Shown here: piece after piece, positions 1-12,943 of the stretch
How positions within the stretch are numbered: position 1 is the first letter of the stretch
Layout of the letters: the number at the start of each line of letters is the position of its first letter
Origin: Rhodococcus pyridinivorans
GTDB taxonomy: Bacteria > Actinomycetota > Actinomycetes > Mycobacteriales > Mycobacteriaceae
Length of the DNA: 64,000 bases
Reading direction: 5' to 3'
Assembly: GCF_900105195.1 (NCBI RefSeq)
Contig: NZ_FNRX01000002.1
Span: 2,232,001 to 2,296,000, forward strand
Program-made: the position numbers and the translations under genes
Notes under the pieces: generated by a model
Seen by the model: the letters and a program-made list of their open reading frames with translations, nothing else
The model's database searches: none
What the model was told of the DNA's origin: nothing

Positions 1-116
1 CCGCAGGGTCCGGCCGAGCCGCGGACGCTCCCCTCGTCGCTCGTCGCATCTCGACGGTTCGATGACGCCTGCAGCGGGAATGCCCCGAACACAGCCCACT
101 GTTCGGAGGTTTGCCC

Positions 117-710
117 ATGACAAGCGGGAACACGAGGACCGATACCGGCCACCGACCCGATCTCGACATAGTTCTCCACGTCGACGGGGTGGAGCGTCGC
201 GTCCCGATCGACGTCCGCACCACCGTGCTCGACGCACTGCGCGACCGCCTCGGGATCACGTCCCCGAAGAAGGGATGCGATCTCGGTCAGTGCGGAGCGT
301 GCACCGTGCTGATCGACGGCCGGCGCACCCTCTCGTGCCTGGCCCTCGCCGCCTCGCACGACGGCGCCGAGATCGTCACCGCCGCCGGACTCGGCGACGG
401 GGAGATGCATCCGCTCCAGGCGCAGTTCATCGAGGACGACGCCTTCCAGTGCGGCTACTGCACCCCCGGCCAGATCTGTTCGGCCGTCGGCATGCTCGAC
501 GAGTTCGCCGACGGGGCGCCGAGTCACGTAACGGCCGATCTCGAACAGGCACCCGAACTCGACGACGACGAGATCCGGGAACGCATGAGCGGCAATCTGT
601 GCCGCTGCGCCGCCTATCCCAACATCGTCTCGGCGATCCGAACCGTCGCCGCCGGTGACAGCCGAATCGGTGTCGGCGACAGCCGCCTCGATACGGAGGA
701 GACGCGATGA
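117..710 (+). CDS. Molybdenum hydroxylase, 2Fe-2S small subunit (XDH/PaoA type)
   Basis: This is the electron-transfer subunit of a three-subunit xanthine dehydrogenase/aldehyde oxidoreductase family enzyme, about 197 aa. The plant-type [2Fe-2S] site is visible as C54, C59, C62 and C74 (CDLGQCGAC then SC). The second, helical [2Fe-2S] domain has CGYC (C112, C115) and CRC (C162, C164). I chose the ATG at 117 because GGAGG at 105-109 sits 7 nt upstream; a TTG six bases earlier is too close to it. No Tat signal is seen, unlike the periplasmic E. coli PaoA, so a cytoplasmic enzyme is inferred. The stop overlaps the start of the FAD subunit by 4 nt. The 116 bases upstream show no other feature. 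The substrate cannot be told from sequence. Confidence 0.93.
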   Translation: MTSGNTRTDTGHRPDLDIVLHVDGVERRVPIDVRTTVLDALRDRLGITSPKKGCDLGQCGACTVLIDGRRTLSCLALAASHDGAEIVTAAGLGDGEMHPLQAQFIEDDAFQCGYCTPGQICSAVGMLDEFADGAPSHVTADLEQAPELDDDEIRERMSGNLCRCAAYPNIVSAIRTVAAGDSRIGVGDSRLDTEETR

Positions 711-1708
711 GCCCCCTCCGCTACGAGCGACCGGCAGATCCCGCCGCCGCCGTCGCCGTCGTGCACGAGACACCGGGTGCGGTCTTCCTCGCGGGCGGCA
801 CGAATCTGGTCGACCACCTCAAACTCGGCGTCGCGACCCCCGATCTCCTCGTCGACGTCTCGCATCTTCCGCTCGACGCCGTGGAGGAGACGGCCGACGG
901 GGGAATCCGGGTGGGCGCCAACGTCCGCAACAGCGACCTCGCGGCGCATCCCTTCGTGCGGCGCAACTACCCGGTGCTGTCGCGCGCACTGCTCGCCGGT
1001 GCCTCACCCCAGCTCCGGAACACCGCGACCACCGGCGGCAACCTGCTCCAGCGCACGCGGTGCTCGTACTTCCGGGACGTGAGCACCCCCTGCAACAAGC
1101 GCGAACCCGGCAGCGGCTGCTCCGCCATCGGCGGATACACCCGCTACCACGCGATCCTCGGCGCCTCGGAGCACTGCGTGGCCACCCATCCGTCCGACAT
1201 GGCGGTCGCCCTGCTCGCGCTCGACGCCGAAGTCCTGGTCCTCGGCCCGGACGGCGAGCGCGCCATCGCGGTAGAGGACTTCTACCGACTCCCCGGCGAC
1301 ACACCCGAGCGCGACACCGTGCTCGAACGCGACGACCTCATCGTCGGCGTGCAGATCCCCGCGGCGCAGAGTTCGCTGTCCACCTATCGCAAGGTGCGCG
1401 ACCGGGCGTCCTACGCCTTCGCGTTGGTCTCCGTAGCGGCCGAGATGACCGTTGCGGACGGGACGATCACCGGGTGCCGCATCGCATTCGGTGGGGTCGC
1501 ACACCGGCCCTGGCGGGCACACCGCGCGGAGGAAGCACTCCTCGGGCAACAACCCTCCGACGAGGTCTTCGCTGCGGCGGCCGAGGCCGAACTCGCCGAC
1601 GCGAGTCCCCTCGACGGCAACGCCTACAAGATTCCGCTGCTGCGGCGAACCGTGGTGGCGACCCTGCGCGAACTCGACGAACGACGGGAACGAGGTGGAT
1701 CCGCATGA
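707..1708 (+). CDS. Molybdenum hydroxylase, FAD-binding medium subunit (PaoB/YagS-like)
   Basis: This 333-aa subunit carries FAD and passes electrons from the iron-sulfur subunit to the final acceptor. The N-terminal FAD-binding signature FLAGGTNLVDHLK is followed by a TGGNLLQRTRC segment. An insertion with four cysteines (C119, C129, C138, C157; TPCNK, SGCSA, EHC) resembles the extra [4Fe-4S] site known in E. coli PaoB and in 4-hydroxybenzoyl-CoA reductase beta subunit; ordinary xanthine dehydrogenases lack it. The start overlaps the upstream stop (ATGA) and the end overlaps the next start, so all three subunits are probably translated in a coupled way. The product is likely a PaoABC-like aldehyde oxidoreductase, but specificity is inference. 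Confidence 0.92.
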   Translation: MSPLRYERPADPAAAVAVVHETPGAVFLAGGTNLVDHLKLGVATPDLLVDVSHLPLDAVEETADGGIRVGANVRNSDLAAHPFVRRNYPVLSRALLAGASPQLRNTATTGGNLLQRTRCSYFRDVSTPCNKREPGSGCSAIGGYTRYHAILGASEHCVATHPSDMAVALLALDAEVLVLGPDGERAIAVEDFYRLPGDTPERDTVLERDDLIVGVQIPAAQSSLSTYRKVRDRASYAFALVSVAAEMTVADGTITGCRIAFGGVAHRPWRAHRAEEALLGQQPSDEVFAAAAEAELADASPLDGNAYKIPLLRRTVVATLRELDERRERGGSA

Positions 1709-3828
1709 GCCCCGAGCCGATCCGAGCAGGTGGACGCTCCACCGCGCGCATCGACGGACCGGCGAAGGTCGCCGGGACGGCACCGTACGCCTACGAGCAC
1801 CCGGTCGACGATCCCGCCTACCTCGTACCGCTCACCTCCACCATCGCCCGTGGACGCGTCGACCGCATCGACACCGCCGCCGCAGAAGCGGTGCCCGGGG
1901 TGCTGAAGGTCCTCACTCCCTGGAACGCCCCACGTCTCACCGAAGAGGCCGAGGACGAGTACTCCGTCCTGCAGACACCCGACGTGCTGTACCGGGGTCA
2001 GATCATCGGCGCGGTCGTCGCGGAGACCTTCGAGATCGCCCGGGAGGCATGCTCGCTCCTGAAGGTCGAGTACAGCGAGGAACCGCACGACGCGCTCTTC
2101 CGCGCCGACCATCCTGACGCGTACACACCCGAGACCGTCAACGGCGGCTACGAACCCGACACCGAGCGAGGCGACGTCGACGCGGCGTTCGCCCGCGCCG
2201 AGACGGTGATCGATCAGTGGTACTCCACCCCTGAGGAACACAACAATCCACTCGAACCGCACACCGTGGTCGCGATCTGGCGGAACGACGTCGTGCCGTC
2301 GAACAGTGAGACCGACGGATACACTCTGACGCTGTACACCTCGACGCAACATCCGCACGGTGTCGTCGAGACCCTCGCGCCGGTCTTCGGTCTCGACGCG
2401 GCCCGGATGCGGGTGGTCTGTCCGTACATCGGTGGGGGATTCGGTTCCAAGGGCGGTCCTCACGCGCACGACGTCCTCGGCGGACTCGCGGCGCGGGCCC
2501 TGGCCGGGAAAGCGATCAAGTTCGCGGTCTCCCGACCAGACATGTTCGGTTACGTCGGGTACCGCGCTCCGACCGCCTCGCACATCCGGCTCGCGGCCGA
2601 CAGTGACGGCAAGCTCACCGGTCTCGTGCACGAGGCGTTCGCCCAGTCGTCCCGGGTCACCGAATTCGTCGAACAGGCGGGGGTGCCGCTGCGCAATCTC
2701 TACGACGTCGCCAACGCCCGTACGTCGCATCGCGCGATCACCCTCGACGTGCCGGCGCCGTTCTGGATGCGCGCGCCAGGTGAAGCGCCGGGCATGTTCG
2801 CCGGCGAGGTCGCGATGGACGAGCTCGCCGCCGAACTCGGGATCGACCCGATCGAACTGCGCATCCGCAACGAACCCGAGTCGGATCCGGAGACGGGAAA
2901 GCCGTGGTCGTCGCGCCGACTCGTCGAATGCCTCCGCGAAGGAGCGCAGCGATTCGGATGGGATCCGTCCGACCGCGAACCCGGCCGCCGGCGGCAGGGC
3001 AACACCCTGATCGGTACCGGCATGGCGGTCGCGACCTATCCCCACATGGTCAATCCCGGCTCGGAAGCCCAGATCCGGCACCTCGGGGAGGGGCGCTACT
3101 CCGTCCGTATCGGAGCGACCGACCTCGGTACGGGTGCGTGGACGACCCTGACCCTCATCGCCGCAGACGCACTCGGATGCCGACCGGAGGACGTGGACCT
3201 CGAGATCGGCGACAGCGCACTGCCCAACGGCACGGTGGCCGGCGGGTCGTCGGGCACCTCGTCCTGGGGAACCGCGATCGTCACGGCCGCAGAGCAATTC
3301 GGCAAACGTTTCGGCGACGACCCGCCGGTGGGTGCCGAACTGTCCGCGTCGGCAGCCGAGAACCGCGAACTCGAGCACTACACCGCGCAGTCCTTCGGTG
3401 TGCACTTCGCCGAGGTGCACGTCGACGCCGATACCGGCGAGATCCGGGTGCCCCGGATGTTCGGTCTGTTCTCCGTGGGACGGGTGATCAATCCGCGAAC
3501 CGCGCGTTCGCAGGTCATCGGCGGGATGTCCTTCGGGATCTCGATGGCGCTCTTCGAGGAGAGCATCCGCGACGCGCGTTTCGGGCACGTCGTCAACCAC
3601 GATCTGTCCGAATACCACGTGCCGACACACGCCGACATCCGCCGGGTCGAAGCGGATTGGCTCGATGACGAGGACCTGCACGCGACACCCATGGGGTCGC
3701 GGGGGATCGGTGAGATCGGGATCGTGGGCAGCGCCGCGGCGGTCGTCAACGCCCTGTGGCACGCGACCGGAGTGCGGGTCCGGAACCTGCCGGCCCACCT
3801 CGACGACCTGCTGGCCGGACTGCCCTGA
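1705..3828 (+). CDS. Molybdenum hydroxylase, molybdopterin-binding large subunit (PaoC/XdhB-like)
   Basis: This 707-aa catalytic subunit holds the molybdenum cofactor. An N-terminal aldehyde oxidase a/b-hammerhead domain (GRSTARIDGPAKVAGTAPYA) precedes the Mo-pterin domains, with GGGFGSKGG near residue 245 and a C-terminal GIGEIGIVG whose glutamate matches the catalytic base of the family. The ATG at 1705 overlaps the FAD-subunit stop. The frame stays open well upstream of this start, but that part overlaps the FAD gene and is not protein-like. No molybdenum cofactor maturation chaperone (XdhC/PaoD) lies next to it in the window. A strong hairpin terminator follows. Confidence 0.93.
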   Translation: MSPEPIRAGGRSTARIDGPAKVAGTAPYAYEHPVDDPAYLVPLTSTIARGRVDRIDTAAAEAVPGVLKVLTPWNAPRLTEEAEDEYSVLQTPDVLYRGQIIGAVVAETFEIAREACSLLKVEYSEEPHDALFRADHPDAYTPETVNGGYEPDTERGDVDAAFARAETVIDQWYSTPEEHNNPLEPHTVVAIWRNDVVPSNSETDGYTLTLYTSTQHPHGVVETLAPVFGLDAARMRVVCPYIGGGFGSKGGPHAHDVLGGLAARALAGKAIKFAVSRPDMFGYVGYRAPTASHIRLAADSDGKLTGLVHEAFAQSSRVTEFVEQAGVPLRNLYDVANARTSHRAITLDVPAPFWMRAPGEAPGMFAGEVAMDELAAELGIDPIELRIRNEPESDPETGKPWSSRRLVECLREGAQRFGWDPSDREPGRRRQGNTLIGTGMAVATYPHMVNPGSEAQIRHLGEGRYSVRIGATDLGTGAWTTLTLIAADALGCRPEDVDLEIGDSALPNGTVAGGSSGTSSWGTAIVTAAEQFGKRFGDDPPVGAELSASAAENRELEHYTAQSFGVHFAEVHVDADTGEIRVPRMFGLFSVGRVINPRTARSQVIGGMSFGISMALFEESIRDARFGHVVNHDLSEYHVPTHADIRRVEADWLDDEDLHATPMGSRGIGEIGIVGSAAAVVNALWHATGVRVRNLPAHLDDLLAGLP

Positions 3829-4107: not shown

Positions 4108-4237
4108 CTAGACCGCTGGAGGGCCACAAGTGCCGACGATCTCTCGGGGAAGCGGGATCGGACGGATGAGTGGGCTTCCGGGTAACGCACAGCAGTCAGT
4201 CGTCAGGCCGCCCACGGCCGTCGGAAAAGGGGCATTC

Positions 4238-4468
4238 ATGAACATCACCGTCTATACCAAGCCTGCCTGCGTCCAGTGCACCGCCACCTACCGCGCCCTC
4301 GACAAGGCCGGCATCGAGTACGACGTCGTCGACATCAGTGAGAACCCCGAGGCCCGCGACTACGTCATGGCGCTGGGATACCTCCAGGCGCCCGTCGTCG
4401 TCGCCGGCGACGACCACTGGTCGGGCTTCCGCCCCGATCGCATCAAGGCGCTTACCGTCGCTGCCTGA
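4238..4468 (+). CDS. nrdH: Glutaredoxin-like protein NrdH
   Basis: This 76-aa thioredoxin-fold hydrogen donor reduces the class Ib ribonucleotide reductase. The redox motif CVQC is at C11-C14, in MNITVYTKPACVQC. The C-terminal half has APVVV and SGFRPDRIK, which match NrdH and mark reduction by thioredoxin reductase rather than glutathione. The ATG at 4238 is preceded by GGAAAAGG at 4223-4230; an in-frame extension upstream to 4130 is not NrdH-like. It is the first gene of nrdHIEF, with 109 nt holding two hairpins before nrdI. NrdR control is probable from the boxes upstream. Confidence 0.96.
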   Translation: MNITVYTKPACVQCTATYRALDKAGIEYDVVDISENPEARDYVMALGYLQAPVVVAGDDHWSGFRPDRIKALTVAA

Positions 4469-4577: not shown

Positions 4578-5030
4578 ATGGCTTCGCTGGGGTCGATCCC
4601 GGGAACATCGCTGGTGTACTTCTCGAGTACATCCGAGAACACCCACCGATTCGTGCAGAAACTCGGGTTTCCGGCCAGCCGTATCCCATTGCACGATCGT
4701 GAGGGGAATTTCGAGGTCCACGATCCGTACGTGCTGATCGTGCCGACCTACGGTGGCGGGACGACCGCCACGGGCCGTGATACCCGCTACGTTCCCAGGC
4801 AGGTCATCCGATTCCTCAACAACGAGCACAATCGGGGCCTGATCCGCGGTGTCATCGCGGCGGGTAACACCAACTTCGGCGACTCGTACTGTTTCGCGGG
4901 AGACATCGTCTCGCGCAAGTGCAAGGTGCCGTATCTGTACCGGTTCGAGTTGATGGGCACGACCGACGACGTCGAGCGTGTCCGCGACGGTCTCGCCCGA
5001 TTCTGGGAGTCCGTTCTCCAGAACGCCTGA
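4578..5030 (+). CDS. nrdI: NrdI, flavodoxin-like activator of class Ib ribonucleotide reductase
   Basis: This 150-aa protein binds FMN and, in characterised class Ib systems, delivers oxidant to NrdF to assemble the dimanganese-tyrosyl radical cofactor. The N-terminal [15 protein letters not shown] is the phosphate-binding loop of the NrdI flavodoxin fold. VPTYGGG and the later [14 protein letters not shown] segment form the flavin-binding 50s and 90s loops. The length is typical (about 130-160 aa). It lies 83 nt upstream of nrdE, in the same operon. Confidence 0.96.
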
Positions 5031-5113: not shown

Positions 5114-8100
5114 GTGACCATTACCGATCCCGCTCCCGCCACGAGCGCACACCTCGACGATTCGCTCAAGGATCTCGACTACCACGCGCTCAACGCGATG
5201 TTGAATCTGTACGGCCCCAACGGCGAGATCCAGTTCGACAAGGATGTGGCCGCCGCCCGTCAGTACTTCCTGCAGCACGTCAACCAGAACACGGTCTTTT
5301 TCCACAACCTCGACGAGAAGCTCGACTACCTCGTCGAGGAGAACTACTACGAGCCCGAGGTGCTCGAGAAGTATTCGCGCGCATTCGTCAAATCGCTGTT
5401 CGAGCACGCATATTCGAAGAAGTTCCGGTTCCCGACCTTCCTCGGTGCGTTCAAGTACTACACCTCGTACACGCTCAAGACGTTCGACGGCAAGCGCTAC
5501 CTTGAGCGTTTCGAGGACCGTGTGTGCATGGTCGCGCTGACGCTCGCCGACGGCGACGAGATCCTCGCCCGGCACCTCGTCGACGAGATCATCTCGGGTC
5601 GTTTCCAGCCGGCCACCCCGACCTTCCTCAACTCGGGCAAGAAGCAGCGCGGCGAGCCCGTCTCGTGCTTTCCCGCCGGTACGCTCATCGACACGATCGA
5701 CGGGCAGCGGGCTATCGAGACCCTGCAGGCGGGGGATCTGGTCCTGTCGCACGACGGGGCGTACCACGCGGTCGAGGAGCTGATCGAGAACCCGAATGAT
5801 CAAGCCTTGGTGTCGATTTCGCACTTCGGGCACAAAGAGCCGATTCGGTGCACTCCGGAGCATCCTATCCTGGTGTGGACCGAGCGTGATGTCGAGACCT
5901 TGATCGACGGCGATGGAGCGGATCCCTTCAACGGTTTCGTATGGCTCGCTGCCCAGGACGTGCGCCCGACCGACTTCATTGTCACCGCGGCGCCGTTGGG
6001 TGAGCGCGACAAGCGCGTTTTCGACCTCATGGACCATGTTGGTAATGGACTGTACGAAGAGGTCGATGGTCTGATTCGTAAGGTGAACGTTGATGCCAAG
6101 CAGCGTCACAGTCAGCGCTTCGTCGGTGTCAACCGATACGTCGAGGAATCGTACGAGTTCGGACTGATTCTCGGCTGGTATGTTGCCGAGGGCTACGTAT
6201 CCAAGCGTGCGGGTGTCGATGGTGTGCAACCCAATGGTGTTCACTTCACTCTCGGTGCACACGAGGTCGAGTACCAGGCAGATCTGGCGGCGGCGTTCAA
6301 GCAAGTATTCGGCGTCGAACTCTCTCAGTCCACCAACCAGTCGGACCACTCGACCAAGATGGGTTGCAACAGCAAGGTGGTGGCGTCATTGCTGCTGTCG
6401 CTTGCCGGGACCGGTTACAGTACGAAACGCCTGACGCGCGATGTCATGACTGCCGATGAAGAGTTTCAGCGCGGTCTGCTTGCGGGCTTGTTCAGGGGCG
6501 ACGGCTGCAGCACCAATGGCGGCATGATCCTCGATCTCGTCAATCCGGAACTGGTGGATCAGGTGCAGTTGATCCTGCGCCGCCTGGGCATCGTGTCGGT
6601 CGTTCGCCAGTACATCAACCAGGCGGGCAATGTGACGGGCCATGTGTTCGTCCCCGGGGTGCCCGGCACCAACGAAGACTTCATCTTCGACGTCGGCAAG
6701 AACCTGCACAACTATGTCGGGCGGAAGGGCGCCAAGCGCACGACCTATCAGGTGGCGCACGGGCGTCATGTCTACGGAATCCGTGAGATCGCGAAGACCG
6801 ACGAGACGCCGAGCAAGGTGTATAACCTGCACGTCGAGGGCACACATACCTATACGATTCGCGGCGCTGTGGTGCACAATTGCTTCCTGCTCCGCATCGA
6901 GGACAACATGGAGTCGATCGGCCGCTCCATCAACTCCGCACTGCAGCTGTCCAAGCGCGGTGGCGGTGTCGCCTTGCTGCTCAGCAACATTCGTGAGCAC
7001 GGCGCTCCGATCAAGAAGATCGAGAACCAGTCCTCCGGCGTCATCCCGATCATGAAGCTGCTCGAGGACTCCTTCTCCTACGCCAACCAGCTCGGTGCCC
7101 GTCAGGGTGCCGGTGCGGTCTACCTGCACGCGCACCACCCCGACATCTACCGCTTCCTCGACACCAAGCGCGAGAACGCCGACGAGAAGATCCGCATCAA
7201 GACCCTCTCGCTGGGCGTCGTCATCCCCGACATCACCTTCGAACTGGCGAAGAAGAACGAGGACATGTACCTGTTCTCGCCGTACGACGTCGAGCGCGTC
7301 TACGGCAAGCCCTTCGCCGACATCGACGTCACCGAGAAGTACTACGAGATGGTCGACGACAAGCGCATCCGCAAGTCGAAGATCAAGGCGCGCGAGTTCT
7401 TCCAGACCGTCGCCGAGCTGCAGTTCGAGTCGGGCTACCCCTACGTCATGTTCGAGGACACGGTGAACCGGGCCAACCCGATCGCCGGCAAGATCACGCA
7501 CTCGAACCTGTGCTCGGAGATCCTGCAGGTCTCGACTCCCTCGGAGTTCAACGACGACCTGTCCTACAGCCATGTGGGCAAGGACATCTCGTGCAACCTC
7601 GGCTCGCTGAACATCGCGAAGACGATGGACTCGCCCGACTTCGCGCAGACCATCGAGGTCGCCATCCGCGGCCTGACGGCCGTCTCCGACCAGACGACGA
7701 TCTCGTCGGTGCCGTCGATCGAGCGGGGCAACAACGAATCCCACGCCATCGGCCTCGGCCAGATGAACCTGCACGGCTTCCTCGCCCGCGAGCACATCTT
7801 CTACGGGTCCGAAGAAGGCGTCGACTTCACGAACATCTACTTCTACACCGTGCTGTTCCACGCCCTGCGTGCGTCGAACAAGATCGCGATCGAGCGCGGC
7901 TCGTACTTCAAGGGCTTCCCGGAGTCGAAGTACGCCTCGGGTGAGTTCTTCGACAAGTACACCGATCAGGTGTGGGAGCCGGCGACCGAACGGGTCCGTC
8001 AGCTGTTCGCCGAGTCGGACATCGCGATCCCCACGCAGCAGGACTGGCGCGAGCTGAAGGAGTCCGTGCAGAAGCACGGCATCTACAACCAGAACCTGCA

Positions 8101-8494
8101 GGCGGTTCCGCCCACCGGTTCGATCTCGTACATCAACCACTCGACGAGCTCGATCCACCCGGTCGCGTCGAAGATCGAGATCCGCAAGGAGGGCAAGATC
8201 GGGCGTGTCTACTACCCGGCGCCCTACATGACGAACGAGAATCTCGAGTACTTCCAGGATGCCTACGAGATCGGCTACGAGAAGATCATCGACACCTACG
8301 CTGCCGCGACGCAGCACGTCGACCAGGGGCTGTCGCTGACGCTGTTCTTCAAGGACACCGTCACCACCCGCGACGTGAACAAGGCCCAGATCTACGCGTG
8401 GCGCAAGGGAATCAAGACCCTGTACTACATCCGCCTGCGGCAGATGGCGCTCGAGGGCACCGAGGTGGAGGGTTGCGTCTCCTGCATGTTGTGA
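5114..8494 (+). CDS. nrdE: Ribonucleotide reductase class Ib alpha subunit NrdE, intein-containing precursor
   Basis: NrdE reduces ribonucleoside diphosphates to deoxyribonucleotides together with NrdF. The encoded precursor is 1126 aa; removal of a 405-aa intein (residues 185-589) leaves 721 aa, the normal NrdE length. Extein landmarks are [12 protein letters not shown] before the insertion and [13 protein letters not shown] after it. Further on are [10 protein letters not shown] with the thiyl-radical cysteine, [11 protein letters not shown] with the partner redox cysteine, and a C-terminal CVSC that exchanges electrons with NrdH. The start is GTG 5114, with GGGGACAG upstream. The reading frame runs unbroken through the intein. 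Function requires protein splicing, because the intein sits immediately before the redox-active cysteine (E. coli NrdA Cys225 equivalent). Confidence 0.97.
5666..6880 (+). mobile_element. Intein with LAGLIDADG (DOD) homing endonuclease in NrdE
   Basis: This 405-residue in-frame insertion begins with Cys185 (block A, CFPAGTLI) and ends with His588-Asn589 before extein Cys590 (block G, AVVHN/C). The splicing block B is [10 protein letters not shown] (residues 246-255), with the usual TxxH histidine at 250. Block F is [16 protein letters not shown]. The central endonuclease has both dodecapeptide motifs: [12 protein letters not shown] (351-362, acidic E359) and [12 protein letters not shown] (455-466, acidic D463). 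All splicing residues are present, so canonical Cys/Asn-Cys splicing is expected. Codons in the insertion are visibly richer in A/T-ended forms (gat, aat, gtt) than the flanking extein, consistent with horizontal origin. The exact activity of the endonuclease cannot be judged. Confidence 0.95.
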
Positions 8495-8542: not shown

Positions 8543-9547
<1,005 letters not shown>

Positions 9548-9580: not shown

Positions 9581-9623
9581 CGATCCCGTACACCGGGCGC
9601 AGCAGCGCCCGTGTGCGGGATCG
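9581..9623 (+). terminator. Hairpin terminator after nrdF
   Basis: CGATCCCGTACACCGGGCG (9581-9599) pairs, with one or two bulges, with CGCCCGTGTGCGGGATCG (about 9606-9623). A short T run (cttttc) follows. It ends 45 nt before the arabinosyltransferase gene. Confidence 0.7.
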
Positions 9624-9653
9624 CGTGCTTTTCGCGGCCCGGCCCGTCCCCGA

Positions 9654-9659
9654 TAGCAT
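9654..9659 (+). promoter_or_regulatory. Candidate -10 (TAGCAT), leaderless promoter of the emb-like gene
   Basis: TAGCAT lies 8 nt before GTG 9668, and no Shine-Dalgarno sequence precedes that codon. This fits a transcript starting at or next to the start codon and supports 9668 over the earlier in-frame GTG at 9611, which lies inside the terminator. Confidence 0.5.
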
Positions 9660-9667
9660 CGCTCCTC

Positions 9668-12600
9668 GTGACCGAGACAAGAGAAGCGTCGGGCTCGCCT
9701 CGGCCGGTGACAATCGAACGCGTGCCGTCGGGCGGGCGGGCAGTCGAGCAGCGGACCCGTCTGTGGGCGGTGCTCGCCGCCGTCGTGGGGATCGTCGCAT
9801 CCATCGCGATGCCGTTCCTGCCCGTGACGCAGACCACTGCGACCATCGACTGGCCGCAGAGCGAGAGCAACGCAGGCATCTCGGCGCCGTTGGTGTCCTA
9901 CGCACCGGTCGATCTCGACGCCACGATCGAGTGCCGGTCCGTGCGCGACGCGCTGCCGGACGGCGGCACCGTCTTCTCCACACTTCCCGCAGGAGCTCCC
10001 GACCGTGAACGCTACGGGCTGATCGCCCGTGTCCGGCCGGCCGGTGACGACGGGCCGGCGGTGTTCGAGGTGATCTCCCGCAACACACTGCTCGCCTCCG
10101 CGCCGGTGGACGACCTGGCCGGGGACTGCTCGGTCACCCTGTCCTCGAACTCGGAACGCACCGTCGCCACGATCACCGGCTCGGCCGCGGCGTCAGGGGA
10201 GCGGACCTTCGACCGAGACCTGCGGCCCCAGCTCGTCGGCATCTTCACCGACCTGCCCGGTCCCGCACTCGACGGTGTCTCGGTCACCGCGACCGTCGAC
10301 ACCCGCTTCACGACGTCTCCGACGGTGCTGAAGATCGTCGCGATGATCGTCGCGGTGGTCGCCACGGCACTGGCGTTGTGGACGCTGGCCCGGCTCGATC
10401 GCGCCGACGGTCGTCGCCACCGCCGCCTGTTGCCGGCGTCGTGGTGGTCGTTCACCCGCATCGACGCGCTGGTCGTCGGAACGCTGCTCGTCTGGCACGT
10501 CATCGGGGCGAACACCGCCGACGACGGTTACCAGCTCGGAATGGCTCGCGCCGCGGGCGCGGCCGGGTACATGGCGAACTACTTCCGGTGGTTCGGTGTG
10601 CCCGAGGCACCCTTCGGCACTCCCTTCTACGACGTCCTCGCCCTGATGACCCAGGTCTCGACGGCGAGCATCTGGATGCGGCTACCGGCACTGACCGCCG
10701 GAATCCTGTGCTGGTGGGTGCTCAGCCGCGAGGTCGCTCCACGTCTCGGCGTCGCACTGCGTCGCAACCGGCTTCCGCTGTGGACCGGGGCGCTGGTGTT
10801 CCTGGCGTTCTGGCTGCCGCTCAACAACGGACTGCGCCCGGAACCGATCGTCGCGACGGGCGTCGTGCTCACCTGGTGCTCGGTCGAACGCGCGATCGCC
10901 ACCCGGCGTCTGCTGCCCGCGGCGGCCGCGATCGTCGTCGCCGCGCTCACCGTGACCGCGGGACCGTCGGGCATCATCTGTTTCGCTGCGCTGATCGCCG
11001 GTGCCCGCCCGATCGCCCGCATCCTCCATCGGCGTGCGCAGACCCTGGGATGGCTGCCGGTACTTACGCCGATGCTCGCGGCCGGACTGGTGATCCTGGT
11101 GCCGGTCTTCGCCGACCAGACCCTCGCGGCGGTGCTGGAGATGCAGCACGTGCACGGCGTCGGTCCGAACGTGCCGTGGTTCCAGGAGTATCTGCGCTAC
11201 CAGTACCTGCTGCAGATCACCGTGGACGGCTCGCTGGCCCGCAGGTTCGCGGTCTTCACCCTGGTGTTGTGCCTGGCGGTGGCGATCGTGGCGATGCTGC
11301 GCCGCGGTGGGCACATCCCCGGCACCGCGCAGGGACCGTCCCGCCGCATCGTCGGCATCACCCTCGGCGCGCTGGTGCTGATGATGTTCGCGCCCACCAA
11401 GTGGACCCACCACTTCGGTATCTACGCCGGTCTGGCCGCCGCGGTGGCGATGCTCGCCGCCGTGGCCACCGGACCCGCGGTGTTGCGTTCGCGACGCAAC
11501 CGCGCCCTGTTCGCCGCGGCGGTGTCGTTCGTGGTGACCATGTCGTTCATCGGCCCCAACGGCTGGTGGTACGTCTCGAGCTACGGGGTCCCGTGGTGGG
11601 ACAAGCCGCCGTCGGTCGCCGGATTCGGTTTCTCCACCGTCTTCTTCGCCGTGACGGTCGTCGCGTTGCTGCTGGCCGCGTGGTGGCACATCCACCCCGT
11701 CGCCTCCACCCGCACCGACACCCCGTCGCGGTTGTGGGCGGTGCCGCCGTTGACCGTCGCCGCCGCGGCGATGGTGCTGTTCGAGGTGCTGTCACTGGCC
11801 AAGGGCGCGATCTCGCAGTACCCGGGCTATTCGGTGGCACGGTCCAACGTCGACACGCTCACCGGCAACTCGTGTGCGCTCGCGAACGACGTGCTGCTCG
11901 AAACGGATCCGAACGCCTCGGTGCTCACCCCCATCGGTGCCGACGCGGCCTCCGCTCTCGATGCCGGGGGAGGGGACGGGTTCACGCCGGGTGGTGTCGC
12001 GCTCGATCTGACCCCGGACGACGACTCGGCCTCGGCCGGCACCGCCAACACCGTCGACACGAACGACGACCAGAGCTCGACCGGCGGTACCGGTGGCACC
12101 GGCGGCGGTACCGGCAGAGTCGGAATCAACGGCAGCACCGTCGCATTGCCGTTCGGCCTCGATCCGGTGACCACGCCGGTGCTGGGCAGCCACGGATCGT
12201 CCCTCGGCGACGTCACGAGCGCCTGGTTCCGGCTGCCCGAGCCCGACGCGACCGGATCGCGTGGGGATCTCGTCACGATCGCCGCGGCCGGCCGGATCTT
12301 CTCCGTCGACGCCGACGGCACCGAAACCTACGGTCAGCGGCTCGAACTCGAATACGGAACCACCGCTGCCGACGGCAGCGTGACCGCGCTGGGACGGGCG
12401 TTGCCGATCGACATCGGTCCGTCGCCCTCGTGGAGGAATCTGCGTGTCCCGATGGACACGCTGCCGGCCGAGGTCGACGCGGTGCGGATCGTCGCCTCCG
12501 ACAACGATCTCGCGCCCGAACAGTGGCTGGCGTTCACCCCGCCGCGCGTGCCGCAGACGCAGACTTTGCAGCAGGTCGTCGGGAGCGACACACCGGTCCT

Positions 12601-12943
12601 GCTGGACTGGGCTGTCGGTCTCAATTTCCCGTGCCAGCGGCAGATGGTGCACCGCAACGGCATCGCCGAGATCCCCGAGTACCGGATCCTGCCGGACCGG
12701 ATCGGTGCTATCTCCACGGATCTGTGGCAGGACCACAACGGTGGCGGTCCTCTCGGCTGGACCGACCAGCTGTTGCGGGCCCGCACGATCCCGTCGTATC
12801 TCGATCACGACTGGGACCGCGACTGGGGAGCGATCGAGCAGTACACACCGATCGATCCGTCGACGGAGACCGCGGAACTCGACACCGCCACGGTCACGCG
12901 CAGCGGTCTGTGGAGCCCGGGTCCGATCAACACTGCCTACTGA
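9668..12943 (+). CDS. Emb-family arabinosyltransferase (EmbB/EmbC-like)
   Basis: This 1091-aa polytopic GT-C enzyme uses decaprenyl-phosphoryl arabinose to build cell-wall arabinan and acts in the plasma membrane. One N-terminal membrane segment (about residues 30-50) precedes an extracytoplasmic domain. The catalytic loop is ANTADDGYQLGMARAAG (D285-D286), then NYFRWFG, as in mycobacterial EmbB; Met292 aligns with EmbB Met306, the ethambutol-resistance position. Multiple hydrophobic segments fill roughly 200-700. The C-terminal carbohydrate-binding part contains GINGSTVALPFGLDP, VLLDWAVGLNFPC and RSGLWSPG. A Gly/Thr/Asp-rich linker (about 784-822, TGGTGGTGGGTG) looks longer than in mycobacterial homologues. 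It stands alone beside nrdF, not in an emb/aft/glf cluster. Family is certain; which Emb paralogue is not. Confidence 0.93.
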   Translation: MTETREASGSPRPVTIERVPSGGRAVEQRTRLWAVLAAVVGIVASIAMPFLPVTQTTATIDWPQSESNAGISAPLVSYAPVDLDATIECRSVRDALPDGGTVFSTLPAGAPDRERYGLIARVRPAGDDGPAVFEVISRNTLLASAPVDDLAGDCSVTLSSNSERTVATITGSAAASGERTFDRDLRPQLVGIFTDLPGPALDGVSVTATVDTRFTTSPTVLKIVAMIVAVVATALALWTLARLDRADGRRHRRLLPASWWSFTRIDALVVGTLLVWHVIGANTADDGYQLGMARAAGAAGYMANYFRWFGVPEAPFGTPFYDVLALMTQVSTASIWMRLPALTAGILCWWVLSREVAPRLGVALRRNRLPLWTGALVFLAFWLPLNNGLRPEPIVATGVVLTWCSVERAIATRRLLPAAAAIVVAALTVTAGPSGIICFAALIAGARPIARILHRRAQTLGWLPVLTPMLAAGLVILVPVFADQTLAAVLEMQHVHGVGPNVPWFQEYLRYQYLLQITVDGSLARRFAVFTLVLCLAVAIVAMLRRGGHIPGTAQGPSRRIVGITLGALVLMMFAPTKWTHHFGIYAGLAAAVAMLAAVATGPAVLRSRRNRALFAAAVSFVVTMSFIGPNGWWYVSSYGVPWWDKPPSVAGFGFSTVFFAVTVVALLLAAWWHIHPVASTRTDTPSRLWAVPPLTVAAAAMVLFEVLSLAKGAISQYPGYSVARSNVDTLTGNSCALANDVLLETDPNASVLTPIGADAASALDAGGGDGFTPGGVALDLTPDDDSASAGTANTVDTNDDQSSTGGTGGTGGGTGRVGINGSTVALPFGLDPVTTPVLGSHGSSLGDVTSAWFRLPEPDATGSRGDLVTIAAAGRIFSVDADGTETYGQRLELEYGTTAADGSVTALGRALPIDIGPSPSWRNLRVPMDTLPAEVDAVRIVASDNDLAPEQWLAFTPPRVPQTQTLQQVVGSDTPVLLDWAVGLNFPCQRQMVHRNGIAEIPEYRILPDRIGAISTDLWQDHNGGGPLGWTDQLLRARTIPSYLDHDWDRDWGAIEQYTPIDPSTETAELDTATVTRSGLWSPGPINTAY

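Follow-up and report, generated by a model that had tools for sequence, protein, structure and literature searches.

The inteins of SPbeta (bnrdE) and Corynebacterium phage P1201 reside at a catalytic cysteine of NrdE, the large subunit of class Ib ribonucleotide reductase (RNR), and the NrdE of P1201 is reported as active (PMC3653736, excerpt). A LAGLIDADG intein at catalytic residues of an RNR is also found in Aquifex aeolicus, where it is located in the small subunit R2, between metal ligands (PMC8772380, excerpt). According to one review, inteins have a preference for catalytic and ligand sites (PMC7765530, excerpt), and RNRdb is reported to contain ca 80 curated RNR inteins (PMC2795772, excerpt). 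We analysed a stretch of 64,000 nucleotides from the genome of Rhodococcus pyridinivorans (hereafter, the window), in which nrdE is interrupted by an intein. As in SPbeta and P1201, the host protein is a class Ib NrdE and the insertion adjoins a catalytic cysteine; unlike those inteins, which precede the radical cysteine (mature C395 in the numbering used here), the window intein precedes C185 and is not inserted before C395. Neither SPbeta nor P1201 was among the seven phage records matched by the window intein at an E-value of 1e-5. We regard it as highly probable that the element works as a class 1 cis-splicing intein, carries a LAGLIDADG homing endonuclease and is an allele of the actinobacterial family found at the NrdE codon equivalent to Cys225 of Escherichia coli NrdA.

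The nrd locus and the anatomy of its intein

The genes nrdH, nrdI, nrdE and nrdF form one same-strand run in the window, and all positions given below for this run and for the intein refer to the forward strand. The first gene, nrdH (4238..4468), encodes the glutaredoxin-like reductant of class Ib RNR and scored 112.9 bits with TIGR02194 over residues 39-108 of an open frame that starts at 4130, with NrdH homology suggesting the ATG at 4238 as the start. It is followed by nrdI (4578..5030) for the flavoprotein of the system (TIGR00333, 167.1 bits; PF07972), by the whole nrdE frame (5114..8494, 1126 aa) for the large subunit, and by nrdF (8546..9547; TIGR04171, 489.2 bits) for the class Ib small subunit. 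Beside this run, inspection by eye revealed a gene set resembling the three subunits (FeS, FAD and molybdopterin) of a xanthine/CO dehydrogenase-type enzyme (111-3828) and a large membrane protein suggestive of an Emb-type arabinosyltransferase (9611-12943).

Two parts of NrdE, separated by a foreign stretch, matched the family model TIGR04170 (1244.3 bits, cut-off 750). The N-extein (5114..5665, 184 residues; RNR_N, Ribonuc_red_lgN and TIGR04170) ends in GEPVS, and the C-extein (6881..8494) comprises the barrel domain (PF02867, 531.9 bits), a C-terminal cysteine pair and the stop codon. The insert at 5666..6880 is 1215 nt long and reads in frame as 405 codons free of stops, from C1 to N405, with the junctions GEPVS/CFPAGT and VVHN/CFLLR and with Ser at position -1. 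The profiles and the S/C1 and HN/C590 junctions confirm the intein and its exact limits as proposed in an earlier note on this DNA, which had also estimated about 80 kDa for the mature enzyme and about 45 kDa for the intein; the computed masses are 82.07 kDa (721 aa after removal of the intein) and 44.55 kDa.

The extein cysteine at position +1 (codon 6881..6883) is C590 of the precursor and C185 of the mature protein. It aligned with Cys178 of Salmonella NrdE (1pem), and the alignment coordinates (588 to 223) place it at residue 225 of E. coli NrdA, so that the equivalence suggested previously holds. In E. coli NrdA, Cys225 and Cys462 form the active-site disulfide. The other catalytic cysteines are all present in mature NrdE, namely the radical cysteine C395 (codon 7511..7513), which corresponds to C439 of E. 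coli, C422 (codon 7592..7594), the equivalent of E. coli C462 and presumably the redox partner of C185, and C716 and C719. The disulfide of Aquifex R1 agrees with the pairing of Cys225 and Cys462 (PMC8772380, excerpt). An unspliced NrdE precursor would be expected to be inactive.

Conservation was assessed in 46 aligned inteins, i.e. the window intein and 45 of the 47 named loci described below (L054 and L081 were left out). The first splicing block (5666..5704) contains the nucleophile C1, the second (5840..5878) T63 and H66 with C62 beside them, a third splicing block (6815..6856; TIGR01443) H389 and T395, and block G (6857..6880, IRGAVVHN) H404 and N405. Each of these residues was found in 46/46 inteins, in agreement with the earlier reading of blocks A, B, F and G as intact. 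The homing endonuclease went unmentioned in that reading; its blocks C to E comprise a first LAGLIDADG motif (block C, 6161..6202) with the acidic residue E175, a block D region (6410..6433) with K254, and a second LAGLIDADG motif (block E, 6473..6508; PF14528) with the acidic residue D279. E175 and K254 are invariant in the alignment, as is C281; D279 is conserved in 45/46, with Ala in L077, and C234 likewise occurs in 45/46.

Searched alone, the insert matched the Pfam models LAGLIDADG_3 (43.2 bits), Hint_2 (36.7) and PT-HINT (35.9) above their cut-offs, whereas Intein_splicing stayed below (28.1 vs 35.8 bits); the C-terminal splicing model TIGR01443 was exceeded (22.5 vs 15.6), and intein_Cterm was matched too. 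The intein was modelled with AlphaFold2 together with ten extein residues per side. The model had a mean pLDDT of 90.4 and a pTM of 0.89, the extein tails being poorly placed, and its best matches in the PDB were the endonuclease-bearing TliVMA and PI-SceI inteins; the HINT fold is present in this predicted model. The sequence combines the features of a class 1 intein (C1, the block B T-x-x-H of T63..H66, and HN followed by the +1 cysteine) with those of a LAGLIDADG endonuclease, i.e. two helices with an acidic residue in each (E175, D279).

After translation, C1 would attack the S184-C1 bond, the extein cysteine would take over the chain as the +1 nucleophile, and N405 would cyclise, whereupon ligation of the exteins would leave a native S-C peptide and restore the redox cysteine. 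The endonuclease, for its part, would cut intein-free nrdE alleles, and repair would copy the intein in. Placement at the Cys225 codon can be understood as the usual intein pattern, because an invariant catalytic codon would offer the nuclease a conserved target, supply the cysteine needed for splicing and make imprecise loss harmful. The presence of the element would be accounted for by its homing endonuclease. In 11 chosen pairs, dN/dS ranged over 0.03-0.17 in the endonuclease part (where the pairs of the window with L036 and L040 are saturated, with dS > 2) and, for the two splicing parts, over 0-0.13 and 0.03-0.31, which shows purifying selection on both the splicing and the endonuclease parts.

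The window allele lacks a KHRN tetrapeptide through a 12-nt deletion between codons 144 and 145 (6095..6100). This tetrapeptide is found in 33/46 aligned inteins and in a variant form in 11/46, and the allele P0003 has it as well. AAGCA stands at both edges of the KHRN stretch in the three relatives examined (L036, L040 and L047), and loss by slippage is suggested for the window allele; the absence of KHRN could have weakened the window nuclease. A separate observation concerns L077 (5001-6146, Nocardia arizonensis), in which D279A is accompanied by a deletion in the endonuclease region and the splicing residues are intact. This looks like early endonuclease decay and might represent a natural step towards a mini-intein.

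Related inteins and their distribution

In a protein search with the intein region, 7992 candidates were scored and 135 of them matched at E ≤ 1e-3, and alignment of the junctions found the same codon filled in relatives; the weakest of the 120 matches listed are not RNRs. These 135 matches, along with the likeness of the AlphaFold2 model to endonuclease-bearing inteins, argue against a chance similarity. The named carriers comprise 47 loci (L036-L082; the weak matches L083 and L084 were set aside) from Nocardia, Mycobacterium, Mycolicibacter, Mycolicibacterium, Gordonia, Lolliginicoccus and one unclassified Mycobacteriaceae MAG. In 46/47 of them, both junctions can be seen, at the same codon and with Ser at -1; in L081 the contig ends within the intein, and the other 46/47 were matched over the whole intein. 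These inteins share the insertion codon and the motifs with the window intein, at 70-82% best-segment identity, but reside in other host genera, and the KHRN deletion sets the window allele apart. An NrdE of Nocardia farcinica with this intein is present in the protein database (P0019), and 'Nfa RIR1' is an InBase entry for N. farcinica.

The earlier note left it open whether site and host had been described. The insertion site is not new, its codon being filled in dozens of public genomes, and by this comparison the intein allele is an established one, with the window's genome as a further host of a known kind; the C225-equivalent site may be listed in RNRdb. Searches of open-licence papers found none that describes it for Rhodococcus or Nocardia.

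The genomes sampled show a sporadic distribution of the intein. Within the host family, 22/401 genomes carry it, in 5/31 genera, and a sample of the order (397 genomes) contained eight carriers, all of the host family. In Rhodococcus, the full intein was found in 1/18 genomes, the window's own, and one other row of this genus gave a weak match (29% identity, residues 241-375). NrdE is complete and uninterrupted in 16 of the other 17 Rhodococcus genomes, and in G009 an intein-free NrdE is present in two pieces. For the first 12 kb of each of the two smaller contigs of the window's genome, Rhodococcus plasmids make up 79/120 matching records for one contig and 31/31 for the other.

The intein of Enterococcus phage vB_Efa29212_3e (L095, 5506-7323) occupies the same site with both junctions and is 47% identical over its full length; differently from the window, the NrdE frame of this phage ends soon after the intein and its nrd genes are in pieces. 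As judged by eye, the N-side junction also precedes the equivalent cysteine in Tenacibaculum phage PTm1, in P0106 and in the viral contig L136, and in the two latter the C-side junction HN/CF fits as well. PTm1 is class Ia-like and P0106 and L136 are class II-like (again by eye), as opposed to class Ib in the window, and identities are 25-30%, measured in part to the Enterococcus phage intein. The frame of PTm1 ends inside the intein, and its extein has no BLAST match to window NrdE.

Double inserts occur in at least 8 of 120 proteins examined, all eight being among the 57 listed (P0066-P0122), namely P0072, P0074, P0076, P0078, P0080, P0094, P0100 and P0105; besides the intein at the C225-equivalent site, these have a second N-side junction SNL/C at the site of the radical cysteine; the C-side junction N/CSEIL of the second insert is directly visible in P0074 and P0105. 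Inteins of RNRs are thus found at two catalytic cysteines (the C225 and C439 equivalents), sometimes both in one protein, and each cysteine doubles as the +1 nucleophile. Apart from RNRs, the genome that contains the window encodes a DnaB helicase (L101, around G000:C2:497337-498305) with two apparent inteins as seen by eye. The first follows the GVGK motif and the second precedes SLEQD, and only the second was matched by Intein_splicing.

Gain and loss in Rhodococcus

In an extein tree of 54 rows, window NrdE nests in its own genus (95*) with the intein-free L010 and L012 as its closest relatives, the extein being 99% identical to that of L010. The intein tree, with 53 rows, places the window and P0003 on a separate branch (95*) beside the Nocardia and mycobacterial groups, the exact place of this branch being unsure in a quick tree with long outgroup branches. 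Outside the P0003 allele group, the nearest inteins among the matches listed are ~82-83% identical in protein, and no close donor was found. Over 60 nt to either side of the insertion, the window sequence does not differ from L010 or L012, and unbroken identity to L010 extends over 144 nt upstream and 65 nt downstream. Because the flanks match those of intein-free congeners base for base, the intein appears young in the window lineage, which probably gained it recently in a homing-type event. The opposite history, in which the genus had the intein from early on and the sampled congeners lost it, we consider highly unlikely: although neither the coexistence of empty and full alleles nor the trees alone tell gain from loss, it demands loss in 17/17 sampled congeners, some of them nearer to the window than to each other, and every one of these losses would have to be exact to the codon.

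A recent gain raises the matter of the donor. Composition was considered as a sign of foreign origin and dropped: GC3 is 0.758 in the intein and 0.931 in the extein, and the intein is the lower one in 67/68 intein-bearing sequences (the window and 67 loci, some genomes being represented twice; the exception, L054, is a misplaced junction). With intein GC3 below that of the extein nearly throughout the family, composition cannot date the transfer. A co-conversion tract was sought in the 492 nt of N-extein next to the insertion and in the adjoining 1500 nt of C-extein, and no foreign flank was seen there in comparison with congeners and 14 Nocardia loci; either the tract would have been short or the donor congeneric. 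The seven phage records retrieved by tblastn at E 1e-5 reached 47% identity at best, and the two plasmid records obtained each covered only part of the query. A first scan of viral contigs yielded 10 loci, with 22-24% identity where the matches were longer and 36% where they were short; in a second scan, for which the Enterococcus phage intein headed the query alignment, 80/110 loci were kept, the best full-length one being 29% identical to the phage intein. The exact 39-nt pattern of the empty site gave 0 matches. A scan with P0075 produced 31 loci, of which four are partial and 27 extend over 2097-2112 nt, which leaves no room for an intein.

Other reductases and the need for splicing

Outside the window, the same genome encodes an intact, intein-free class II NrdJ-like reductase of 927 aa (L002; G000:C2:1525443-1527047, minus strand), and a second, weaker RNR match is also present in the other 17 Rhodococcus genomes. 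As NrdJ is intact, strict dependence on NrdE is absent in the window host and loss of NrdE need not be lethal. A second intact reductase next to a non-functional nrdE had been named previously as the case that would overturn the view of a working intein; such a reductase exists, but no decay is visible in window NrdE. Taken together with the 12-nt deletion in the intein, the intact NrdJ would fit a splicing-defective or slow relic in an nrdE made dispensable by dNTPs from NrdJ. We consider such a relic extremely improbable, as all splicing residues are intact, the deletion is located close to the endonuclease part, in the stretch that separates the splicing blocks, and nrdH, nrdI and nrdF match their own families; furthermore, over the 1992 nt compared, the nrdE extein shares 98.8% identity with that of an intein-free congener, with 20/23 differences at third codon positions. 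The window copy is very probably a splicing and recently mobile element.

For many other hosts, splicing appears to matter more directly. In 16/21 other carriers, the interrupted NrdE is the sole large subunit found (class I/II), in genomes that are listed as 98-100% complete and in which a second enzyme may be missed or unassembled. Fifteen of these 16 have a single match, and the two matches in G391 represent one gene, the contigs sharing a 127-nt end. A further class II-like enzyme was detected in the remaining 5/21 (G098, G198, G216, G353 and G387), and NrdD in 0/22 genomes (the 21 carriers and the window genome), with 6/14 genomes positive in the control. Because no other large subunit was found in the 16 carriers, splicing should yield active enzyme there, and the simplest reading is that the intein family would splice well in vivo. 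NrdJ was also considered as a correlate of the intein, and no link is claimed: a class II-like enzyme was found in 5/21 carriers vs 2/19 non-carriers, the latter being the same-family ones among the genomes listed, and no match reached the cut-off of the class II model.

The position of the intein next to a redox cysteine also brings to mind a conditional intein, with splicing gated by redox state and NrdE maturing only in reducing conditions. The gate could be a reversible disulfide of C62, beside block B, with C1 or with the +1 redox cysteine, and C62 and C281 are present in all 46 actinobacterial inteins. As a precedent, the DnaB intein of a mycobacterium is inhibited when its catalytic cysteine is engaged in a disulfide (PMC6195587, excerpt), and the Aquifex R2 intein adjoins metal ligands in a protein for which a construct with higher iron content is reported (PMC8772380, excerpt); the window genome, in addition, has NrdJ as a backup. 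We nevertheless consider gating unlikely, as P0073 and P0074, two distant members, have Ser in place of C62, and a long block would be costly where, as in the 16 carriers above, no other large subunit was found. Slightly less likely again would be the complete scheme of a redox-gated maturation switch, with the redox cysteine as nucleophile, a C62 disulfide as lock, NrdE released when the NrdH thiol system is reduced, and NrdJ as backup.

Whatever the case, filled and empty sites within one genus form a clean natural pair, identical over 60 + 60 nt, on which homing of an intein at a catalytic cysteine is directly testable. Beyond Rhodococcus, splicing looks essential in many other carriers, which seemingly lack a further reductase large subunit.
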